Source: Phycisphaerales bacterium (GTDB lineage Bacteria > Planctomycetota > Phycisphaerae > Phycisphaerales > SM1A02). Taken from it: a DNA stretch of 64,000 bases. Location: contig JAQWNP010000016.1 of NCBI GenBank assembly GCA_029268515.1, positions 186,001-250,000 on the forward strand, given 5' to 3'. This document shows positions 1 through 7,552 of the stretch, in pieces. The translations under genes were made by a program, and so were the position numbers. The notes under the pieces are model-generated. The model did not search any database and was not told the origin of the DNA. It saw nothing but the letters and a program-made list of their open reading frames with translations. The number at the start of each line of letters is the position of its first letter. Position 1 is the stretch's first letter.

Positions 1-608
1 AGTAGCGCGGCGACCCAAACACCGAAAGTTCGCTGCCAGCTCATAGAAATTTCTGGATAGCGATCCAAACCGCTCACGAGTACCTGCAAACCATCTTCCT
101 GGCTTTGAGTGATCAAACCTTCAGCTTTGGCTTGAACGATTTTTTGCTTTGCAGTCGTGGGATCAAGGGCCAATGCTGGGGGCAGCCCTACCTCTTTGAG
201 TGCTGCCTGGACGGGCATGATCTCCATACTGATATCACGCCACGTCGTCCATGGCGTCAGCTTGCTAATGATCTTGTCTTTACCAGATTCAACACCGGGA
301 TCTGTCTCGTCAGCCAAATTGACCCATACCGTCTCAGGTACATCTGATTCCGGAAGCAGCTGTGCCTCACCCGCATCCTTCGCTTTTTCCTCAGCATCCT
401 TCGCTTTGTCCTCACAAGACAAAGCCGCTGCTGATGCAGTCAACTGAAGAGCCGCACCCGCATCCTTCGCTTTGACCTCAACCTCGACAAACTCATAGTT
501 TGTGCCCGCGACATAAGTCAATGACATACCTGTGGTGAAAAATCGCCATCCCAAAGCGCCAATGCCAATCACGAATATCAGGGTCCAAATGAGCTTCTCT
601 TTTGTCAT
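1..608 (-). CDS. Membrane-anchored protein of the MutL/DUF6754 cluster, C-terminus outside window
   Basis: Partial gene: 202 codons are readable and the frame is still open at base 1. It starts with ATG at 608, overlapping the TGA of the preceding gene by 4 bp (ATGA), which suggests translational coupling. Residues about 6-23 form one hydrophobic segment (LIWTLIFVIGIGALGW), so a single-pass anchor or uncleaved signal is likely. Residues about 45-85 are an Ala/Lys/Glu/Asp-rich stretch with three near-identical heptads of the type (E)xKAKDA. The rest visible looks globular. I do not recognise the family. Position and overlap make it the last visible gene of the operon that starts near 7552. Confidence 0.75.
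   Translation of the reverse strand, partial: MTKEKLIWTLIFVIGIGALGWRFFTTGMSLTYVAGTNYEFVEVEVKAKDAGAALQLTASAAALSCEDKAKDAEEKAKDAGEAQLLPESDVPETVWVNLADETDPGVESGKDKIISKLTPWTTWRDISMEIMPVQAALKEVGLPPALALDPTTAKQKIVQAKAEGLITQSQEDGLQVLVSGLDRYPEISMSWQRTFGVWVAAL
373..480. repeat. Three 21-bp direct repeats inside a coding region
   Basis: Copies lie at 373-393, 394-414 and 460-480. All begin GCATCCTTCGCTTT on the plus strand and end CCTCA. Copies 1 and 2 are directly adjacent; copy 3 lies 45 bp further on. They are in frame with the minus-strand gene and encode EEKAKDA, EDKAKDA and EVKAKDA. The pattern fits in-frame tandem duplication of a heptad rather than a regulatory element. Confidence 0.85.
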
Positions 609-1462
609 CGCTCTTCACCTCGCCTTCGCCCGACGAAGTAGATGATGTTGCCCATGATGATCAATGCCACCATAAGCGCATGACCGACAAGCTGTGGCCC
701 CATCCGTTTCTTTGCTTCCTGAGCATCAGGATTGGCGGCAATCAATGGAAAATTTTCATCAAGTATCTGCTCGTATTCTGCCGCGCCCTTAATGGCGCCC
801 AGCAGACCAATCAGTTGATCAGGAATATAAGCCACAAGCTGTGTTGCCTGGACACCAGTGACGCCAGCAACAATCGGAATGTCATGTGGTGTCCCCGCAT
901 ACTGCACCCATTGCTTGGTACCCGGGTCACCCGCCGAAATACTGACAATCAAATCCATCTGCTGGATATTCTTGATTCCCTGGCACATCGGAATCTCGTC
1001 AAAGCTGGTGCCCTGCTGATCGGTGATGAAAAGCTTTTGCATGTCCGTAACGATGACCGTTATAACCGCTTCAGCACCTGGCTTAAAGCCAAGGTTGACG
1101 TAATCTTCGCCGTATTTGTAGTGCGGATATTCCTCCATCAGAATCCGCACACCGGCAACATCGATCATCGGCTCACCGAGCGGCCAAAGCGCCATGTAGT
1201 AGAGCTTGTGGTTTTTCTCAGCGCATTGCCGAGTGAATGCTTTCGCCATTGGCTGCAATTCACCCATCGAACCAGGGTCGTAGTCATACGCCATCAAGAT
1301 GCGGGATCCATCCGGAAGGTCCTCGATTGCATCATAAATATCCTGAACCATAGGCGACGTTTCTTCAGGAAACGTCAAGTTTGTAAGAATCGGTATAGCC
1401 ACAGCCAATCCCATTAGTAGGAAGACCCAGCGGCGATCGAGATTCTTAAGAAGCTTGTACAT
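605..1462 (-). CDS. Two-TM membrane protein of the MutL/DUF6754 cluster, unknown function
   Basis: 285 aa. It has a hydrophobic segment at residues about 12-27 and a second at about 258-277, followed by a basic tail (GRRRGEER). The ~230-residue middle is probably one soluble domain on the outer face if the N-terminal segment is an anchor. This region contains segments such as IVSISAGDPGTKQW and IPIVAGVTGVQATQL. I do not recognise a named family. It lies 30 bp after the preceding gene and overlaps the next by 4 bp. The two-anchor, large-loop design resembles a scaffold or sensor, but that is inference only. Confidence 0.8.
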   Translation of the reverse strand: MYKLLKNLDRRWVFLLMGLAVAIPILTNLTFPEETSPMVQDIYDAIEDLPDGSRILMAYDYDPGSMGELQPMAKAFTRQCAEKNHKLYYMALWPLGEPMIDVAGVRILMEEYPHYKYGEDYVNLGFKPGAEAVITVIVTDMQKLFITDQQGTSFDEIPMCQGIKNIQQMDLIVSISAGDPGTKQWVQYAGTPHDIPIVAGVTGVQATQLVAYIPDQLIGLLGAIKGAAEYEQILDENFPLIAANPDAQEAKKRMGPQLVGHALMVALIIMGNIIYFVGRRRGEER

Positions 1463-1492: not shown

Positions 1493-2236
1493 TTAGTCCT
1501 GTCCCAGATAAGAACGATCGACACCTAAGAGAATCTTGAGCGAGACAGACACCACGCCCAGCGCGATGCCAATGATGATCGCCCGGCCAGCACCCTTTGT
1601 CGGTCCGTCCAATGCAAGCCACTCGGTCAAACGGTCAAGTCGCATGGTCTTCCAGTCATCAACCGTCGAGGCGATGTTGAACCAATTACAGATATCAACC
1701 ATCGTTCCTGGCACCCAACCTGTGAGCCAAACACCTGCATAGGTACGCCCGAGGAGCACGATAAAAGCAGTCAAAAGCAGCAGTGTGGCCTCAAAGTTCT
1801 TGGCTCTAAAGGCTCGGAATGCCGCTGATGCAACATAGAACGCCAGCATGGCAAACATCGTCGACGTCAGCGGATAAATCACATATTGGTAAATCCACCA
1901 GAAGCTTGCACCCTCTTCAAGATAGTTGCCGCCCCAAGCAAAGTCAGGGTACTTCGGATTCGGGTGCACACCGACTTGAAGTAAGCCAATAACCAACGTC
2001 ACCACAAAGCTAACGATGATAATGACCGAGTACATCCAACCAGCACGTTGGCCAGAGATCTTCTCTAAATGCAGTTTGAGTAAGTTCCCGCCACCGAGAA
2101 CAAATGCTCCGACAGCTAAAATGTCGAACCAAATCATTCCCTTCTCACCCCACTCCTCCGTATAAGGAATGAAGGTCGATAGGATAACAACGAACCCAGC
2201 AACAATAGCAATCATAAGTGGGACGGTGCGCTTCAT
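1493..2236 (-). CDS. Polytopic inner-membrane protein of the MutL/DUF6754 cluster
   Basis: 247 aa with about six hydrophobic segments, near residues 5-23, 36-52, 68-90, 118-140, 150-170 and 215-237. A Trp-rich loop follows the third segment, and a conserved-looking stretch with NWFN precedes the last. No transporter or enzyme motif is visible. It overlaps the DUF6754 gene by 4 bp (ATGA at 2233-2236), so the two are likely translated together and may form one membrane complex. I do not recognise a named family. Confidence 0.8.
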   Translation of the reverse strand: MKRTVPLMIAIVAGFVVILSTFIPYTEEWGEKGMIWFDILAVGAFVLGGGNLLKLHLEKISGQRAGWMYSVIIIVSFVVTLVIGLLQVGVHPNPKYPDFAWGGNYLEEGASFWWIYQYVIYPLTSTMFAMLAFYVASAAFRAFRAKNFEATLLLLTAFIVLLGRTYAGVWLTGWVPGTMVDICNWFNIASTVDDWKTMRLDRLTEWLALDGPTKGAGRAIIIGIALGVVSVSLKILLGVDRSYLGQD

Positions 2237-3612
2237 GCGTCAATGCCTCCACTCTCAAGTGCATTGGTTTTCAACTCATAATCTTGTTGATCCTGCAAGA
2301 TCTGTTCAAACCACTCAGCAGTTCCTGCCTCCATTGATGTCATGGTCAAACCACTACTACCCAGAATATTGTCACTGATGTATTCACGAACATCCGTGAT
2401 ATCAGTGGAATCAGTCCAGATGAGCTCAAGTGTGGCAAAGACCACACCAATGATAATGAGTCCGCCACCCAACAATTTTCCAAGATCCTGGCCCTTAAGT
2501 GAACCAAGCTGCTGAGGATCGCCAGAAAGATATGCACTGGCTGCAAAAAACTCTTCACCAATGAGCGTGTAATCACAGGCCGCCACGAAGAAGGGCAGCT
2601 GTGATGGCATGGCTGTACCAGCCACTTGGATAGCGCCAATATGATTGCCCGTCTCTGCCAGAATCAGAGACTCGGCATAAAACGCACCCATGTAAATACA
2701 GGCCGCAGGCTTTTCTCGCACCATGAAGCCAGTCACACCTGCCACATAACCGAATTGCTCATCGGTCAGATAGTAAATGCGATCTTCTTGATAGGCATCT
2801 GGCCGCCCCGCCGACAAATAAGCTTCTTGGACAGTTTCGCGTGCCGTCGTCATAACCAGTGCACGAGCTGTCGGCACTTCAAGTGTAGCGCCGTACTCAG
2901 CTGCCGTTTTAGCAACACGCGAAAGTACCGTGAGGCCCGCCAACGTCTGAATATCGTTGATATCGAGAATGCCGTTAATAAACAGGATTGGCCGGCCCAT
3001 CTCGGTGGCTCGCCCAACCGCTTCATCGACTGCACTCAGGCCCGCGATCTCGCGAACTTTCAACTTCCGTCCCGAACGGGCAATCCTGATATACGTAATG
3101 ATGCAGCCACTAATGATAAGTAGCATGATGCCCATCCAAGCCTTCTCATAGTCAAACCACTGCATGACTGCAGCGACCGGATAGTCCATCGTCGTCATCG
3201 CCGAGACATTGCCGCCAGGGCTCATCGCGGCAACACCGTACCGGTATGACACACCTTCCTTCACATTACTATCGGTGTATGAGTTGACCCCATACGTTTG
3301 GCTACCAACCTTTACAAAGTCGTCATCGCAATCTGCCAAGCGACGGTAGATGAGGTAATCCTTGACTTGTGATGGTGAATCCGTATTGAGATCAGGCATT
3401 GCACTGGCTGAAGGATCATTCGGTGAAAGCGACCAGTAAACCTCAATGGCCTCGCCTTTGTCACCTTCCTTATCAACCGCGTTAATTTTTTCAGGCGGCG
3501 CCGGAATTCCACCTGCTGGACTCTGAGCCTGCGCTATATCACGCGGCATCAAAAGCATGACCAGCATCAAAGCGGCCAGTGCAGGCAGAGGCAAGATAAA
3601 CCGAGTCTTCAT
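2233..3612 (-). CDS. Secreted FN3-like plus DUF6754 membrane protein
   Basis: 459 aa. A signal peptide covers residues 1-29 (cleavage near AQA-QS). Residues ~38-145 look like a fibronectin type III domain, with YWSLSPND early and DYLIYRR and YRYGVAAMSPGG in the later strands. A TM helix lies at about 158-176. The next ~200 residues match my memory of DUF6754: GRPILFINGILDINDIQTLA, a Gly/Ala-rich middle, and GNHIGAIQVAGTAMPSQLP. A second TM is near residues 378-398 (GGGLIIIGVVFATLELIW), followed by an acidic tail. This architecture suggests an outward domain tethered to a cytoplasmic or membrane-apposed module. The function is unknown. It lies 74 bp downstream of the barrel-sandwich gene. Confidence 0.8.
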   Translation of the reverse strand: MKTRFILPLPALAALMLVMLLMPRDIAQAQSPAGGIPAPPEKINAVDKEGDKGEAIEVYWSLSPNDPSASAMPDLNTDSPSQVKDYLIYRRLADCDDDFVKVGSQTYGVNSYTDSNVKEGVSYRYGVAAMSPGGNVSAMTTMDYPVAAVMQWFDYEKAWMGIMLLIISGCIITYIRIARSGRKLKVREIAGLSAVDEAVGRATEMGRPILFINGILDINDIQTLAGLTVLSRVAKTAAEYGATLEVPTARALVMTTARETVQEAYLSAGRPDAYQEDRIYYLTDEQFGYVAGVTGFMVREKPAACIYMGAFYAESLILAETGNHIGAIQVAGTAMPSQLPFFVAACDYTLIGEEFFAASAYLSGDPQQLGSLKGQDLGKLLGGGLIIIGVVFATLELIWTDSTDITDVREYISDNILGSSGLTMTSMEAGTAEWFEQILQDQQDYELKTNALESGGIDA

Positions 3613-3686: not shown

Positions 3687-4814
3687 TTAGCCCTCGATCA
3701 ATTCCACATTCGCTCGTGGAATAACAACACTCTCCCCGGAATCGAGTTTGACTTCAAGTACCCGCGCCTTTGACCCGGAGCCAAGCACTGCTGGCTGGGG
3801 TGGCAAACCAGCCACTTGACCGATCTCACCAAAGTAGGGATCGCGAATAATTCGGACCGGACGTCCCATGGCCAGAAGCCCCTCAACGCCCTCTTCTACC
3901 CCACCTTGAGGGCTCTCATCGGGCTTTAAAGGCACAATAATCTCCGGCCGCATCACGCCAGCCCGGATCTGAGTGGCCCCATTGACTGAAGCCTGGCGTC
4001 CTTCTCGAGCCTGGAGTAACTCAAAACTCCTCTTGGCCATGGCAATATCACCAAAGCCCTCAGTGATGACAATGGTGATGCCCTTTCGCTCTGAGCCTGT
4101 GATCGCGACACCCAGGTCGTAGCCGAGAAAGTCCTTCAGATCTTGGTCATCGATTCCCCCAGAAACAATGGCAGCGGCCCCGATGGCGACAGCCCGTTCA
4201 ATCGCGGCATCCGTCACTTGACCTCCGCCAACCACAATGCAGTCTTTCATATCGGCTTTGATCAGATCTTCTGTCAGGACTTCATCATGCCGCTCACATG
4301 CCATCCTGATGTTCCCGCTGGTCTCACCACCGATGCCAAAGATGCCTTGCATATAGGTGCCCTGCGTTTCAATGACACAGCCTTCTTTCGGCAGCACCTC
4401 AAGAATACGGCCTGAAACATAGGCCCGAACCTGAATCGGAATCGCTGGACCGCGAAGAATCAGCTGACCGGTGATCTCAGAAACAGTCTCAATGGTTCCA
4501 GAATATGGAGAAACCTGTGATTTCTTCATCATCCCGAAGATGCCCTTGGTCTGAGCAAGAAGCTCCCCCTTCTCAATGGCATCACCCTCTTTTTTAACCA
4601 GGCATTCTGGAACATCTGCTGGTGGCAGTGAAAGCAGATTGGCCATATTAATTGGGTACACATCACCTGGCATTGCTGTTTGCGCCACGATGTCATTGGC
4701 ATCAACAGTTTGGCCAACTTCCACAAGCACGTCGCCCTGAATTGGAAGCATTCGCTTGCATTGATGTGTCAGCCAACGACTGACTTTAAGTCCTGGTGTA
4801 TAGGCATGTGCCAT
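3687..4814 (-). CDS. Barrel-sandwich/KOW-like protein partnered with MutL-like ATPase
   Basis: 375 aa, no signal or TM. The first ~140 residues contain two segments typical of barrel-sandwich hybrid folds (GDVLVEVGQTVDANDIVA and VKKEGDAIEKGELLAQ). These look like lipoyl or HlyD-type half-motifs but have no biotinylated or lipoylated lysine motif. The middle (about 180-300) looks alpha/beta with Gly-rich turns (DCIVVGGGQVTDAAIERA, AAIVSGGIDD). The last ~60 residues (GRPVRIIRDPYFGEIGQVAG ... VIPRANVELIEG) look like a KOW/NusG-type beta barrel. It lies 35 bp after the MutL-like gene. The function is unknown; I infer an adaptor that works with the ATPase. Confidence 0.75.
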   Translation of the reverse strand: MAHAYTPGLKVSRWLTHQCKRMLPIQGDVLVEVGQTVDANDIVAQTAMPGDVYPINMANLLSLPPADVPECLVKKEGDAIEKGELLAQTKGIFGMMKKSQVSPYSGTIETVSEITGQLILRGPAIPIQVRAYVSGRILEVLPKEGCVIETQGTYMQGIFGIGGETSGNIRMACERHDEVLTEDLIKADMKDCIVVGGGQVTDAAIERAVAIGAAAIVSGGIDDQDLKDFLGYDLGVAITGSERKGITIVITEGFGDIAMAKRSFELLQAREGRQASVNGATQIRAGVMRPEIIVPLKPDESPQGGVEEGVEGLLAMGRPVRIIRDPYFGEIGQVAGLPPQPAVLGSGSKARVLEVKLDSGESVVIPRANVELIEG

Positions 4815-4849: not shown

Positions 4850-6709
4850 TCAAACCGTTGCTGCAATAGTCTCATCTACCTTTGGATAGAGCTCAAGCTC
4901 CTTCACCCAAGCCCCAATTGCGGCCTTACAGGCTTCGCGTTCCTCTGGCAGCGCGAGCGGCCGGCCACGCCCATCGAGTATCAAGCCGACGGAGCCGCCA
5001 CGAACTTCAGCGGTCATTTTCTTCCCTGGCCCGGCGCCAAGATCAAATCCACGAGCAGGATCACAAGTAATTGTGGCCGTTTGATCCTGGCCCATACGAA
5101 TCAATTCAAGATCGCCAAAGTTCATCTCACCAGAAGCCTGTATACCATCGCCCTGTAGCTCCCAGCTGAAACACTTCTTGCCGGGCTTGCCGATGCCCTT
5201 AGCTGACACATTGGTACCGAGATAGACCAGGCAATCTCGATCAAACACCTCCATGGCTGCCTTGGGATGCACTGCGGCGAGAACACCGAGGTGAGGCATC
5301 ATGAAAATCGAATCTTTGGCCAGTTTGGTGACGCCCTCAGGTTCAAATGCATCAACCAACATCATCGCCGTCTGTTCCATGCATGGGGCATGACTTAGTA
5401 CGCCGCCAGAAGCCACTAATAAATTCAGCGCCATGTTGTCGACAATTGTTTGGCCGCCAACCTGCTGACTGAACGTATCACCAACCGTACGCTGCTGCTG
5501 GACACCTTTGAGTGTGGTCGCAAACTCTTTGTGCTGTTGATAGGCCAAACGCAGTGCTTCGCGAGCCACTGCTTGCTCAAAGACCAATGCCTCATGAGAT
5601 TGAGGAATCGTCGTTGGCCGAATCATCTTGTTCTTGACCCGATTGCGTAGTTCACGTTCATTCATATCGAAATGAACCCAACGCAGCACACTTGCCATCG
5701 TGGCCTCAGCGCAGACATTCGAGATTGAATAACTCATGCCGAGATTGGCACTCACAGTACGGTTAAACGTCTTATCAAAGACACTAAAGACGTCTGTGGT
5801 CGCCCCACCGATATCCACGCCCACAACATTAATGTCCTGATCTTTCGCAATCTGCTGCAAAATATCACCCACGGCACCAGGCGTTGGCATGATGGGCGCG
5901 TCTGTCCACTCCATTAGCCTGTCATAACCAGGCGCATGGGCCATGACATGTTCCAGGAAGACGTCATGAATCTTATCTCGTGCTGGGCCTAGATTCTCGC
6001 GTTCGAGCACTGGTCGCAAATTATCAACCATCTCTAAGTCGATCCATCCCTCATCCAGGACATCGCCAACCTGATCGCGAGCAGCTGAGTTCCCCGCATA
6101 GATAATTGGCATTTCATACTCACTACCAAAACGAGGCTGGGGACGAGCTGGCGCAATCAACTCCGCAAGCTCAACAACCTTCTCAGTAGTGCCTCCATCA
6201 GTACCCCCAGAAAGCAGGATCATGTCTGGACGAAGTTCGCGAATGCGCTGAATCTGCTCGTGGGGACGACGTTTATCATTTGACGAAATGACATCCATCA
6301 CAATGGCGCCTGCGCCTAACGCGGCGCGCTTCGCACTGGCAGCAGTCATCTCAGCAATCACACCGGCAACCATCATCTGGAGCCCGCCGCCAGCACTTGA
6401 TGTTGAGATATAGATATCACAACCTTCCGTATCTGTTGCTGGCTGAATAATGCGACCGTTGTCATCGACTAATTTGCGATCCGCCAACTCGCCAACCTCA
6501 GTAATTGCATTGACGGCACCAATGGTGACATCCGCAAAAGGTTGCTCAACAGTTGTTGGGGCTTCACCTCGTTGGGTCTGACGATAGACACCATCGATGA
6601 GCTCGATAAAAACTGCCTTCGTCGTAGTACTACCACAGTCGGTGGCAAGAATAATCTTGACCTTGTCTGTATCAATCTTGATTGTTTCGTGGGACGTTGC
6701 CTGCGACAT
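4850..6709 (-). CDS. MutL-like ASKHA-fold ATPase (glutamate mutase L family)
   Basis: 619 aa. Two phosphate-binding motifs of the actin/Hsp70/hexokinase superfamily are visible: phosphate 1 at residues ~20-37 (LATDCGSTTTKAVF) and phosphate 2 at ~295-310 (GVDIGGATTDVF). Further Gly motifs are STSSAGGGLQ (about 102-111) and LLSGGTDGG (about 165-173). This matches the family annotated as glutamate mutase L, which accompanies B12-dependent glutamate mutase in clostridia. No mutase subunit (GlmS/GlmE) is in this window, so the mutase label probably does not describe its role. The start overlaps the preceding 140-aa gene by 38 bp. The neighbours are all membrane or adaptor proteins, which suggests an ATPase acting on a membrane assembly. 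Confidence 0.85.
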   Translation of the reverse strand: MSQATSHETIKIDTDKVKIILATDCGSTTTKAVFIELIDGVYRQTQRGEAPTTVEQPFADVTIGAVNAITEVGELADRKLVDDNGRIIQPATDTEGCDIYISTSSAGGGLQMMVAGVIAEMTAASAKRAALGAGAIVMDVISSNDKRRPHEQIQRIRELRPDMILLSGGTDGGTTEKVVELAELIAPARPQPRFGSEYEMPIIYAGNSAARDQVGDVLDEGWIDLEMVDNLRPVLERENLGPARDKIHDVFLEHVMAHAPGYDRLMEWTDAPIMPTPGAVGDILQQIAKDQDINVVGVDIGGATTDVFSVFDKTFNRTVSANLGMSYSISNVCAEATMASVLRWVHFDMNERELRNRVKNKMIRPTTIPQSHEALVFEQAVAREALRLAYQQHKEFATTLKGVQQQRTVGDTFSQQVGGQTIVDNMALNLLVASGGVLSHAPCMEQTAMMLVDAFEPEGVTKLAKDSIFMMPHLGVLAAVHPKAAMEVFDRDCLVYLGTNVSAKGIGKPGKKCFSWELQGDGIQASGEMNFGDLELIRMGQDQTATITCDPARGFDLGAGPGKKMTAEVRGGSVGLILDGRGRPLALPEEREACKAAIGAWVKELELYPKVDETIAATV

Positions 6710-7094
6710 CGTCGTCCTTTCCTTGGGAATGCTGAACTACTGAAACCTGGTCCTGATGAACACTTGAACCGGCTTCCTCTGACTCTACTATTGCCTCGAT
6801 CTCCTCAAGCCGCATAAGAATGTACTCAAACGCCCCGCGATGTTCGACAAATTCGGCAAAATGGCGGAGCCCCTCTGTATCTGTGACGGTAGCCAGGATC
6901 GGCCGAAAAAAGTGCATCGCCTGCGAACTAAGATAGTTCAGAGGACGACTCATCTGCAGTGCCACGATAGCGGGTGTTGTCATCCGACGACTCACCACCG
7001 CTCGGCAAACTTTGTCAATCACCTTGCGCTGTGGCTCTGTTGGCTCCTGGGGGCCGGGCGGATCCACCGCAAAGGCATTCTTGATCCAGCTCAT
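6672..7094 (-). CDS. 140-aa cytoplasmic protein of the MutL/DUF6754 cluster
   Basis: 140 aa, soluble, predicted mostly helical. The N-terminal Pro-rich stretch (DPPGPQEPTEPQR) is followed by a hydrophobic-patterned helical core (residues ~22-100, with PLNYLSSQAMHFFRPILAT and EYILMRLEEIEAIVE). The C-terminus is acidic/polar and probably disordered. It overlaps the upstream PH-like gene by 4 bp (ATGA) and the downstream MutL-like gene by 38 bp, so it is almost certainly co-expressed with them. No recognisable family. A small adaptor is one possibility. Confidence 0.7.
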   Translation of the reverse strand: MSWIKNAFAVDPPGPQEPTEPQRKVIDKVCRAVVSRRMTTPAIVALQMSRPLNYLSSQAMHFFRPILATVTDTEGLRHFAEFVEHRGAFEYILMRLEEIEAIVESEEAGSSVHQDQVSVVQHSQGKDDDVAGNVPRNNQD

Positions 7095-7552
7095 GCCGGC
7101 TGCTCCTGCATGTAGCTTTTGATCATGGACACAATGGGTTCCCTCTTGTTTGGAAAAACCAAGTGCAATCCAGAAAATGCATCAAATCGACTCCGACGCG
7201 ATCGCGTTGATAAGAATCCACCAGCATCATCATGCACAAAACGCCGCAGCTGTCGCCATTGATAGCGCTTTCGTGTCATCGGAAAGACAGCAGTGATACC
7301 GCGCTGATCAATGGTGAAAGTGCTTGGAAAGAAGAATCTATTCAGGCTCAAGATCAGGATTACAACAGCGCCCAGTCCAACCCATGGGGCCCAGGATGGT
7401 GAATCAACCCATGTTGCAATCAACCAACCAGCGCAAACAATCACCACGAGCGCGACCATGGCTGCCACCCAACGCTGCCGCGCGGGATGAACCTTCCAGG
7501 TATACGCATTTTTCTCAATTACATCCATAAGCACATTTCGATCCAGGACCAC
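7091..7552 (-). CDS. Two-TM protein with PH-like C-terminal domain
   Basis: 153 aa. There are two hydrophobic helices at about 29-48 and 54-71. A short beta-rich domain follows (STFTIDQRGITAVFPMTRKR, YQWRQLRRFVHDDAGGFLS), similar in layout to bacterial PH/YcxB-like domains found after a TM hairpin. A second ATG eight codons in could be the true start. It is the first gene of the cluster running to base 1 and is separated from birA by 84 bp. The PH-like call is tentative. Confidence 0.65.
   Translation of the reverse strand: MVLDRNVLMDVIEKNAYTWKVHPARQRWVAAMVALVVIVCAGWLIATWVDSPSWAPWVGLGAVVILILSLNRFFFPSTFTIDQRGITAVFPMTRKRYQWRQLRRFVHDDAGGFLSTRSRRSRFDAFSGLHLVFPNKREPIVSMIKSYMQEQPA

Follow-up and report, generated by a model that had tools for sequence, protein, structure and literature searches.

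A MutL-family ASKHA ATPase in a conserved gene module with the soluble partner F7 and DUF6754 membrane proteins: a candidate reactivase-like switch of an inner-membrane complex

Reactivases of B12-dependent dehydratases (DdrA/GdrA) unite ATPase and swivelling domains in their alpha subunit, as described in PMC7674605. GlmL (NF040745), the methylaspartate mutase accessory protein, belongs to the Pfam MutL family (PF13941); the chaperone role given to it in PMC4682846 comes with the citation of a paper about a reactivase of the B12-dehydratase type. The same Pfam family also contains a GlmL-related ornithine degradation protein (NF040744). In PMC9426571 and PMC6365647, pfam13941 is listed as MutL sharing the HATPase domain or among histidine kinases and is filtered out; such a filter fits the mismatch-repair MutL and not the GlmL-type family, so that the shared name may have caused a mix-up. 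In the literature searched, a scope that leaves out most subscription journals and all bioRxiv preprints, we found no described function of DUF6754 (PF20539) and no description of a module of MutL, F7 and DUF6754.

The window, the whole stretch of 64,000 nucleotides analysed here, comes from a Phycisphaerales genome of 3.2 Mb that is 99.5% complete and has one MutL. A conserved module of eight genes fills its left end in the minus-strand order S9, S8, MutL, F7, DUF6754, M5, M3 and M4 (Table 1). An earlier sequence-only reading, centred on the MutL gene, had given no strand and had overlooked this membrane module. We propose, with a probability of about one half, that MutL and F7 form an ATP-driven, reactivase-like switch of an inner-membrane complex of DUF6754, M5, M3 and M4, and not a helper of glutamate mutase.

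Table 1. Genes of the module at the left end of the window, with the basis of each assignment
Gene	Coordinates	Strand	Description	Basis
S9	7091..7552	minus	small protein upstream of S8, two TM segments	profile, 6/20 loci
S8	6672..7094	minus	small soluble protein, upstream of MutL	profile, 17/20 loci
MutL	4850..6709	minus	MutL-family ASKHA ATPase, 619 aa; ~100-residue C-terminal extension, absent from mutase-linked MutLs	ORF and PF13941 profile
F7	3687..4814	minus	soluble partner, 375 aa	predicted barrel-sandwich, swivelling and KOW/SH3-like domains
DUF6754	2233..3612	minus	DUF6754 protein	PF20539, 404.9 bits, cut-off 27
M5	1493..2236	minus	membrane protein, ~5 TM segments	no Pfam family over cut-off
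M3	605..1462	minus	soluble domain between two terminal TM segments	domain predicted periplasmic by positive-inside rule
M4	1..608	minus	membrane protein, ~6 hydrophobic segments, start 608; no Pfam family over cut-off; cut by the window's left end	

The MutL gene is a single intact, stop-free open reading frame, and the plus strand is interrupted by stops in the same frame. PF13941 matches residues 20-493 over the full profile (1-450) with 434.4 bits (E 6e-130, cut-off 27); this E-value and the conservation across many lineages exclude a chance match to the family. Both phosphate-binding motifs, TDCGSTTTKA and VDIGGATTD, are intact, as the sequence-only reading had stated, and are nearly invariant among relatives; the motif (G/A)SGG is likewise nearly invariant in the MutL alignments. 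We take DCGSTTTK, VDIGGATTD and (G/A)SGG to be the phosphate-1, phosphate-2 and adenosine motifs, and these ASKHA motifs suggest that the protein hydrolyses ATP. The closest relatives in a scan of named genomes are mostly records titled Planctomycetota, Phycisphaerales or Planctomycetaceae. Among solved structures, neither a sequence search nor a profile search with MutL gave a relative, the one row of the profile search having an E-value of 0.39, and a B12-binding match within MutL itself (14.4 bits against a cut-off of 32.1) was taken as noise.

Comparison with GlmL reveals shared PF13941 membership, shared ASKHA motifs and a core identity of 19-35% between module and mutase-linked rows. The module MutL differs in its low score, 237.1 bits or half the NF040745 equivalog cut-off of 475, in having no mutase neighbours, in a cysteine within the phosphate-1 motif, in its C-terminal extension (103-118 residues beyond position 500 in module MutLs, 0-11 in mutase-linked MutLs), in far stronger conservation and in its place in another group of the tree. 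The window MutL also falls below the cut-offs of NF040744 (212.4 bits against 600) and of the broad GlmL family model (174 bits against 204). The cysteine in the phosphate-1 loop (C20 in the numbering of alignment A1), together with C488, is invariant in all 19 module MutLs of A1; in alignment A8, no fewer than 30 of 31 module rows have it, and the second MutLs and mutase-linked rows shown there have another residue. Redox control of the ATPase through these conserved cysteines is conceivable.

Within the module, consecutive genes from S9 to M3 are spaced by -4, -38, 35, 74, -4 and 30 nucleotides (negative values being overlaps), and M4 starts inside the end of M3; given the overlap of 38 with S8, the true start of MutL may lie further in. 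M4 is complete in L051 (9331-10608). Profiles of the eight families were applied to 20 loci of the phylum, chosen by hand, mostly because MutL and DUF6754 are linked there, and in 13 of them the arrangement is MutL-F7-DUF6754-M5-M3-M4. Three of these 20 loci (L067, L068 and L069) place DUF6754-M5-M3-M4 before MutL, and the rest are truncated at contig ends or contain just part of the module. Larger parts recur among 80 loci from named genomes, in Planctomycetota and in records titled Zixibacteria, Neomarinimicrobiota, Nitrospira, Calditrichaeota, Eisenbacteria, Latescibacteria, CSSED10-310, Gemmatimonadaceae and Deltaproteobacteria; four Poribacteria loci show MutL alone, no F7 being seen there. 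Where the sequence extends at least 2.5 kb downstream of MutL (62 loci), F7 follows on the same strand in 50 and is not found directly downstream in 12. Where 9 kb flank MutL on each side (26 loci), DUF6754 is found in 18 and missing in 8, and where 1.5 kb lie upstream (68 loci), S8 is found in 44.

Beyond the module, no flanking gene is widely shared; the largest cluster covers 8 of the 80 loci (blastp E 1e-15, frames of at least 120 aa). A further secreted-looking protein of ~280 aa is encoded between MutL and F7 in 8 of the 80 loci (L108, L109, L116, L118, L121, L122, L126 and L131). TolQ-like genes and, in part, TolR-, TolA- or TolB-like genes, all named by eye, lie near the module in six (L108, L109, L118, L121, L131 and L136), whose titles are limited to Zixibacteria, FCB group, Calditrichaeota and, in one case, 'bacterium'.

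Among 294 genomes of the phylum, which are related and in many cases incomplete, so that Fisher values from these counts do not give probabilities of independent events, MutL was detected over cut-off in 80, DUF6754 in 76, F7 in 71 and glutamate mutase E (GlmE, PF06368) in 5, with weak GlmE matches in 4 more. All five GlmE genomes carry MutL, G069 and G154 among them, and none carries F7 or DUF6754; no GlmE was found over cut-off in any of the 71 F7 genomes or the 76 DUF6754 genomes of this sample. G250 likewise lacks both F7 and DUF6754; its MutLs have other B12-binding proteins nearby, and it is these neighbours, not GlmE, that class it as mutase-linked, giving six mutase-linked MutL genomes in all. 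The other 74 MutL genomes, a set built by removing the GlmE genomes and within which the absence of GlmE is therefore circular, carry F7 in 70, DUF6754 in 70 and both in 67. The exceptions are G131, lacking both, G111, G125 and G208, lacking DUF6754, and G155, G273 and G312, lacking F7; the F7 of G111 is no more than a fragment, located where a contig ends. Six genomes have DUF6754 but no MutL, and one has F7 but no MutL.

MutL and DUF6754 share a contig in 49 genomes; 44 of these have the two genes within 10 kb, in every case on the same strand (44/44), and the other five have them 250 kb to 2.9 Mb apart. Twenty genomes picked for a module-type MutL (15 bearing titles of other phyla or classes, two just 'bacterium', three planctomycete) all contain DUF6754, even where it is unlinked, as in Poribacteria, and none has GlmE over cut-off, the single weak match scoring 18.5 bits. 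In eight of them the DUF6754 matches, of which some are partial, number three to six, and seven of these eight have one MutL over cut-off. Multiplication of the membrane part is also visible within loci: tandem DUF6754-M5-M3-M4 blocks are found in L058, L059, L061, L121, L122, L125 and L142. L122 and L125 each have at least three blocks, some incomplete, with one MutL.

The sequence-only reading had pointed to the lack of a B12-binding protein and of a mutase gene in the window, had warned that the family name may mislead, and had proposed a genome-wide search for GlmS/GlmE and a tree of MutL proteins. Its description of the window holds. PF02310 has four matches in the source genome, none of them on C16, the contig of the window: they are located on C17, C6, C10 and C1 and belong to a methionine synthase, a fusion of a B12-binding domain with a MeaB-type GTPase, and proteins of 248 and 290 aa. 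The fusion lies on a contig away from the window (G000:C6:560719-561057, L152). GlmE is absent from the whole source genome, hence there is no GlmS/GlmE pair, and from its 60 relatives (0/61); the five GlmE genomes of the 294 indicate that the search can find its target. A methylmalonyl-CoA-mutase-type enzyme (PF01642) is encoded on contig C1, so that the B12 mutase of this genome is of another class, has a MeaB-type helper and is unlinked to the MutL locus. An overlooked mutase pair was rejected after searches with PF06368, PF02310 and PF09043; the aminomutase search (PF09043) gave no match in this genome and is weak, as it matched in no control either. The Peptoclostridium proteins GlmS, GlmE and methylaspartate ammonia-lyase (L169), used as queries, gave no match, and hence no GlmS or GlmE relative, in any of 100 module-type MutL loci, that of the window included. 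All 11 mutase-linked loci matched a relative of one or the other, a partly circular result, some having been classed by these neighbours.

The proposed tree separates the two kinds of MutL. Its 48 rows comprise the window, 12 of the 80 named-genome loci, 18 of 20 further loci, six second MutLs of planctomycetes and 11 mutase-linked proteins. The 31 module-type rows, with the window among them, form one group (98/97), and the 11 rows beside B12-binding proteins form another (100/100), whose inner order is unsure, the tree program warning of long branches above all for these rows. The six second MutLs, which are fused to F7, lie beside F7 or have no visible F7, branch with the module rows at the deep split (100/100) and lie outside the module group. 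Module rows share a mean core identity of 69.6% and mutase-linked rows one of 32.4%; across the two groups it is 27.5%. By tree and by the partners F7 and DUF6754, the module-type MutLs are a separate subfamily as judged from sequence. With no GlmE in the genome and a separate tree group, the suspicion that the family name may mislead is supported, and the contrary outcome, a mutase pair elsewhere together with clustering among mutase-linked MutLs, was not obtained.

These results bear most directly on the possibility of a GlmL-type chaperone role, in which the window MutL would reactivate a B12-dependent mutase from another part of the genome and the membrane genes would be bystanders. PF13941 membership and intact ASKHA motifs would agree with such a role, as would the presence of the methylmalonyl-CoA-mutase-type enzyme and the B12-binding/MeaB fusion. 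We nevertheless regard it as highly improbable: GlmE is missing from the genome and is not found over cut-off in the 71 F7, 76 DUF6754 and 20 module-locus genomes, the protein groups with module-type MutLs, its kind sharing 27.5% identity with mutase-linked rows against 69.6% within the module, and the acyl-CoA mutase already has its own MeaB-type G protein.

F7 matches no Pfam family over cut-off, the nearest being a sub-threshold RnfC_N match (17.7 bits against 25.6), and shows a mean column identity of 62% over 57 rows (alignment A5, the window plus 56 of 60 F7 matches; A6 and A7 hold 46 of 47 and 36 of 37 rows). The predicted model (pLDDT 86.8) resolves into three putative domains, from N- to C-terminus a barrel-sandwich, a swivelling and a KOW/SH3-like domain. 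Residues 52-123 resemble the barrel-sandwich protein DUF2118 (Z 7.3, rmsd 2.4, 63 aligned). Residues 130-300 resemble swivelling beta/beta/alpha domains (RraA, UPF0107 and rifampin phosphotransferase; Z 9.0-9.4, rmsd 2.8-5.1), with Z 9.3, rmsd 5.1 and 135 aligned residues for RraA and Z 9.0, rmsd 2.8 and 110 aligned for UPF0107. Residues 312-375 superimpose on KOW domains of Spt5 and NusG with rmsd 1.1-1.5 over ~50 residues. These Z values are middling, slightly above the level that the tool calls common, and no B12-dehydratase reactivase is among the structure matches listed. Sequence search against solved structures gave one KOW match (E 0.046) besides matches to RNA polymerase barrels (E ~0.35).

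One lineage has MutL fused to F7, which we regard as the strongest sign, at the level of sequence, that they act jointly. In G224, two frames that stay open over 839 aa from stop to stop, at L160:7278-9794 and L161:8298-10814, have MutL at residues ~10-490 and F7 at residues ~510-839; a third fused frame (L162) is partial. The G224 fusions lack the C-terminal extension of MutL. The planctomycetes with fused frames (L160, L161 and L162) also have a normal module. The second MutLs (L160-L165), most of them fused to F7 or beside it, have no DUF6754 nearby, and the pair may therefore serve another or a further client.

The DUF6754 protein is laid out as a signal or TM segment, an N-terminal part, a TM segment, a Rossmann-like domain and a final TM segment; by the charge rule of thumb, the N-terminal part is probably periplasmic and the Rossmann-like domain cytoplasmic. 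For M3, the same rule suggests a periplasmic soluble domain. The Rossmann-like alpha/beta domain, located between two predicted TM helices, is modelled with a pLDDT of 95.3. Mean column identity, from alignments of differing rows, is 64% for this domain, 49% for M5, 40% for M3 and 36% for M4; it is 68% for module MutLs (A1, 19 rows), which places MutL among the most conserved parts of the module and suggests a basic role. Neither DUF6754 nor M3 has a convincing solved relative by sequence. A homology between the two, suspected by eye, was left unsupported by hhalign (probability 0.6%).

The best VIA matches of the DUF6754 domain are four Sir2 rows (Z 11.0-11.8; the top one with rmsd 3.4 over 139 aligned residues), and CODH epsilon (Z 9.4, rmsd 3.2, 135 aligned) and transhydrogenase domain III (Z 9.2, rmsd 3.4, 137 aligned) also match. 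This resemblance, together with the sub-threshold RnfC_N match of F7, would be expected of a redox- or nucleotide-linked pump in which DUF6754 binds NAD(P) or FAD, F7 supplies an RnfC/NqrA-like barrel and MutL acts as regulator. Beyond Sir2, however, many unrelated Rossmann-like folds reach Z values of 8-10, and the query-normalised Foldseek TM-scores do not exceed 0.35 among the best 50 matches. Neither the M5 nor the M4 alignment contains an invariant cysteine, and no classical dinucleotide glycine motif was seen by eye in that of DUF6754. We consider such a pump distinctly unlikely.

In the switch that we propose, MutL and F7 would form a single soluble unit, in which the ATP cycle of the ASKHA core of MutL would shift the swivelling domain of F7, comparable to B12-dehydratase reactivases, where both parts lie in a single chain. 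The unit would dock onto a membrane core made up of the cytoplasmic Rossmann-like domain of DUF6754, the transmembrane proteins M5 and M4 and the periplasmic domain of M3, and would reset or drive this core; where genomes carry several cores, a single MutL-F7 pair would serve them all. A shared soluble pair of ATPase and adaptor alongside repeated membrane blocks fits the resetting or driving of several cores. By analogy, the module may keep the old working principle of a reactivase with a new client. Its likeness to DdrA/GdrA is one of domain type only, an ASKHA ATPase plus a swivelling domain; here these are two, sometimes fused, proteins with additional barrel-sandwich and KOW domains, membrane partners and no B12 enzyme.

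ASKHA proteins such as FtsA and PilM are scaffolds for inner-membrane complexes. MutL could similarly be an actin-like or PilM-like scaffold that organises the envelope on membrane proteins, with no transport or reset cycle, and the TolQ-like neighbours in 6 of 80 loci and a weak PHROG match to a partition protein (residues 279-332, E 2e-4) are what one might then see. That match, however, is limited to the stretch around the common phosphate-2 motif, and the Tol link to Zixibacteria, the FCB group, Calditrichaeota and the one 'bacterium' locus. To our knowledge, a swivelling, barrel-sandwich partner is no component of FtsA/PilM-type scaffolds, and we hold a purely scaffolding MutL to be unlikely. 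An anti-phage defence role found no support, the eight module proteins giving no PADLOC match at E 0.01.

A broader and more tentative extension of the proposed switch is that the module represents an undescribed ATP-driven machine, a transporter or an envelope machine, in which the ASKHA ATPase and its swivelling partner power interchangeable DUF6754-M5-M3-M4 cores; we think this possible, with the odds against it. The module spans Planctomycetota (including a Candidatus Brocadia record), Zixibacteria, Nitrospira, Latescibacteria and others, and no precedent for an ASKHA-energised transporter or envelope machine was found in the literature searched. MutL itself is a variant of a known family, and the whole system may be of a new kind.

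For annotation, family membership passes the GlmL/MutL name on to proteins from many lineages where a glutamate mutase is not detected. DUF6754, of which the window protein is a clear member, gains a gene context through the link to MutL and F7 made here. The module points to an envelope system of mostly uncultured bacteria, Brocadia and Nitrospira records included.

Further neighbourhoods deserve mention. Three mutase-type MutLs occur within a single planctomycete genome (L155, L156 and L157 of G250), each with a nearby frame of 595-668 aa whose one Pfam match (E 1e-4) is a B12-binding domain at the C-terminus; these frames are perhaps unknown B12 enzymes. L170 has a MutL beside an ornithine/lysine-aminomutase-type protein, and the fused MutL-F7 gene of L161 adjoins genes that, by eye, resemble a division/cell-wall cluster. 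Just left of the window (L051:5281-9023), the module is followed on the same strand by PlsX-, FabH- and FabD-type genes of fatty-acid synthesis, a type seen in none of the flanking clusters of other loci.
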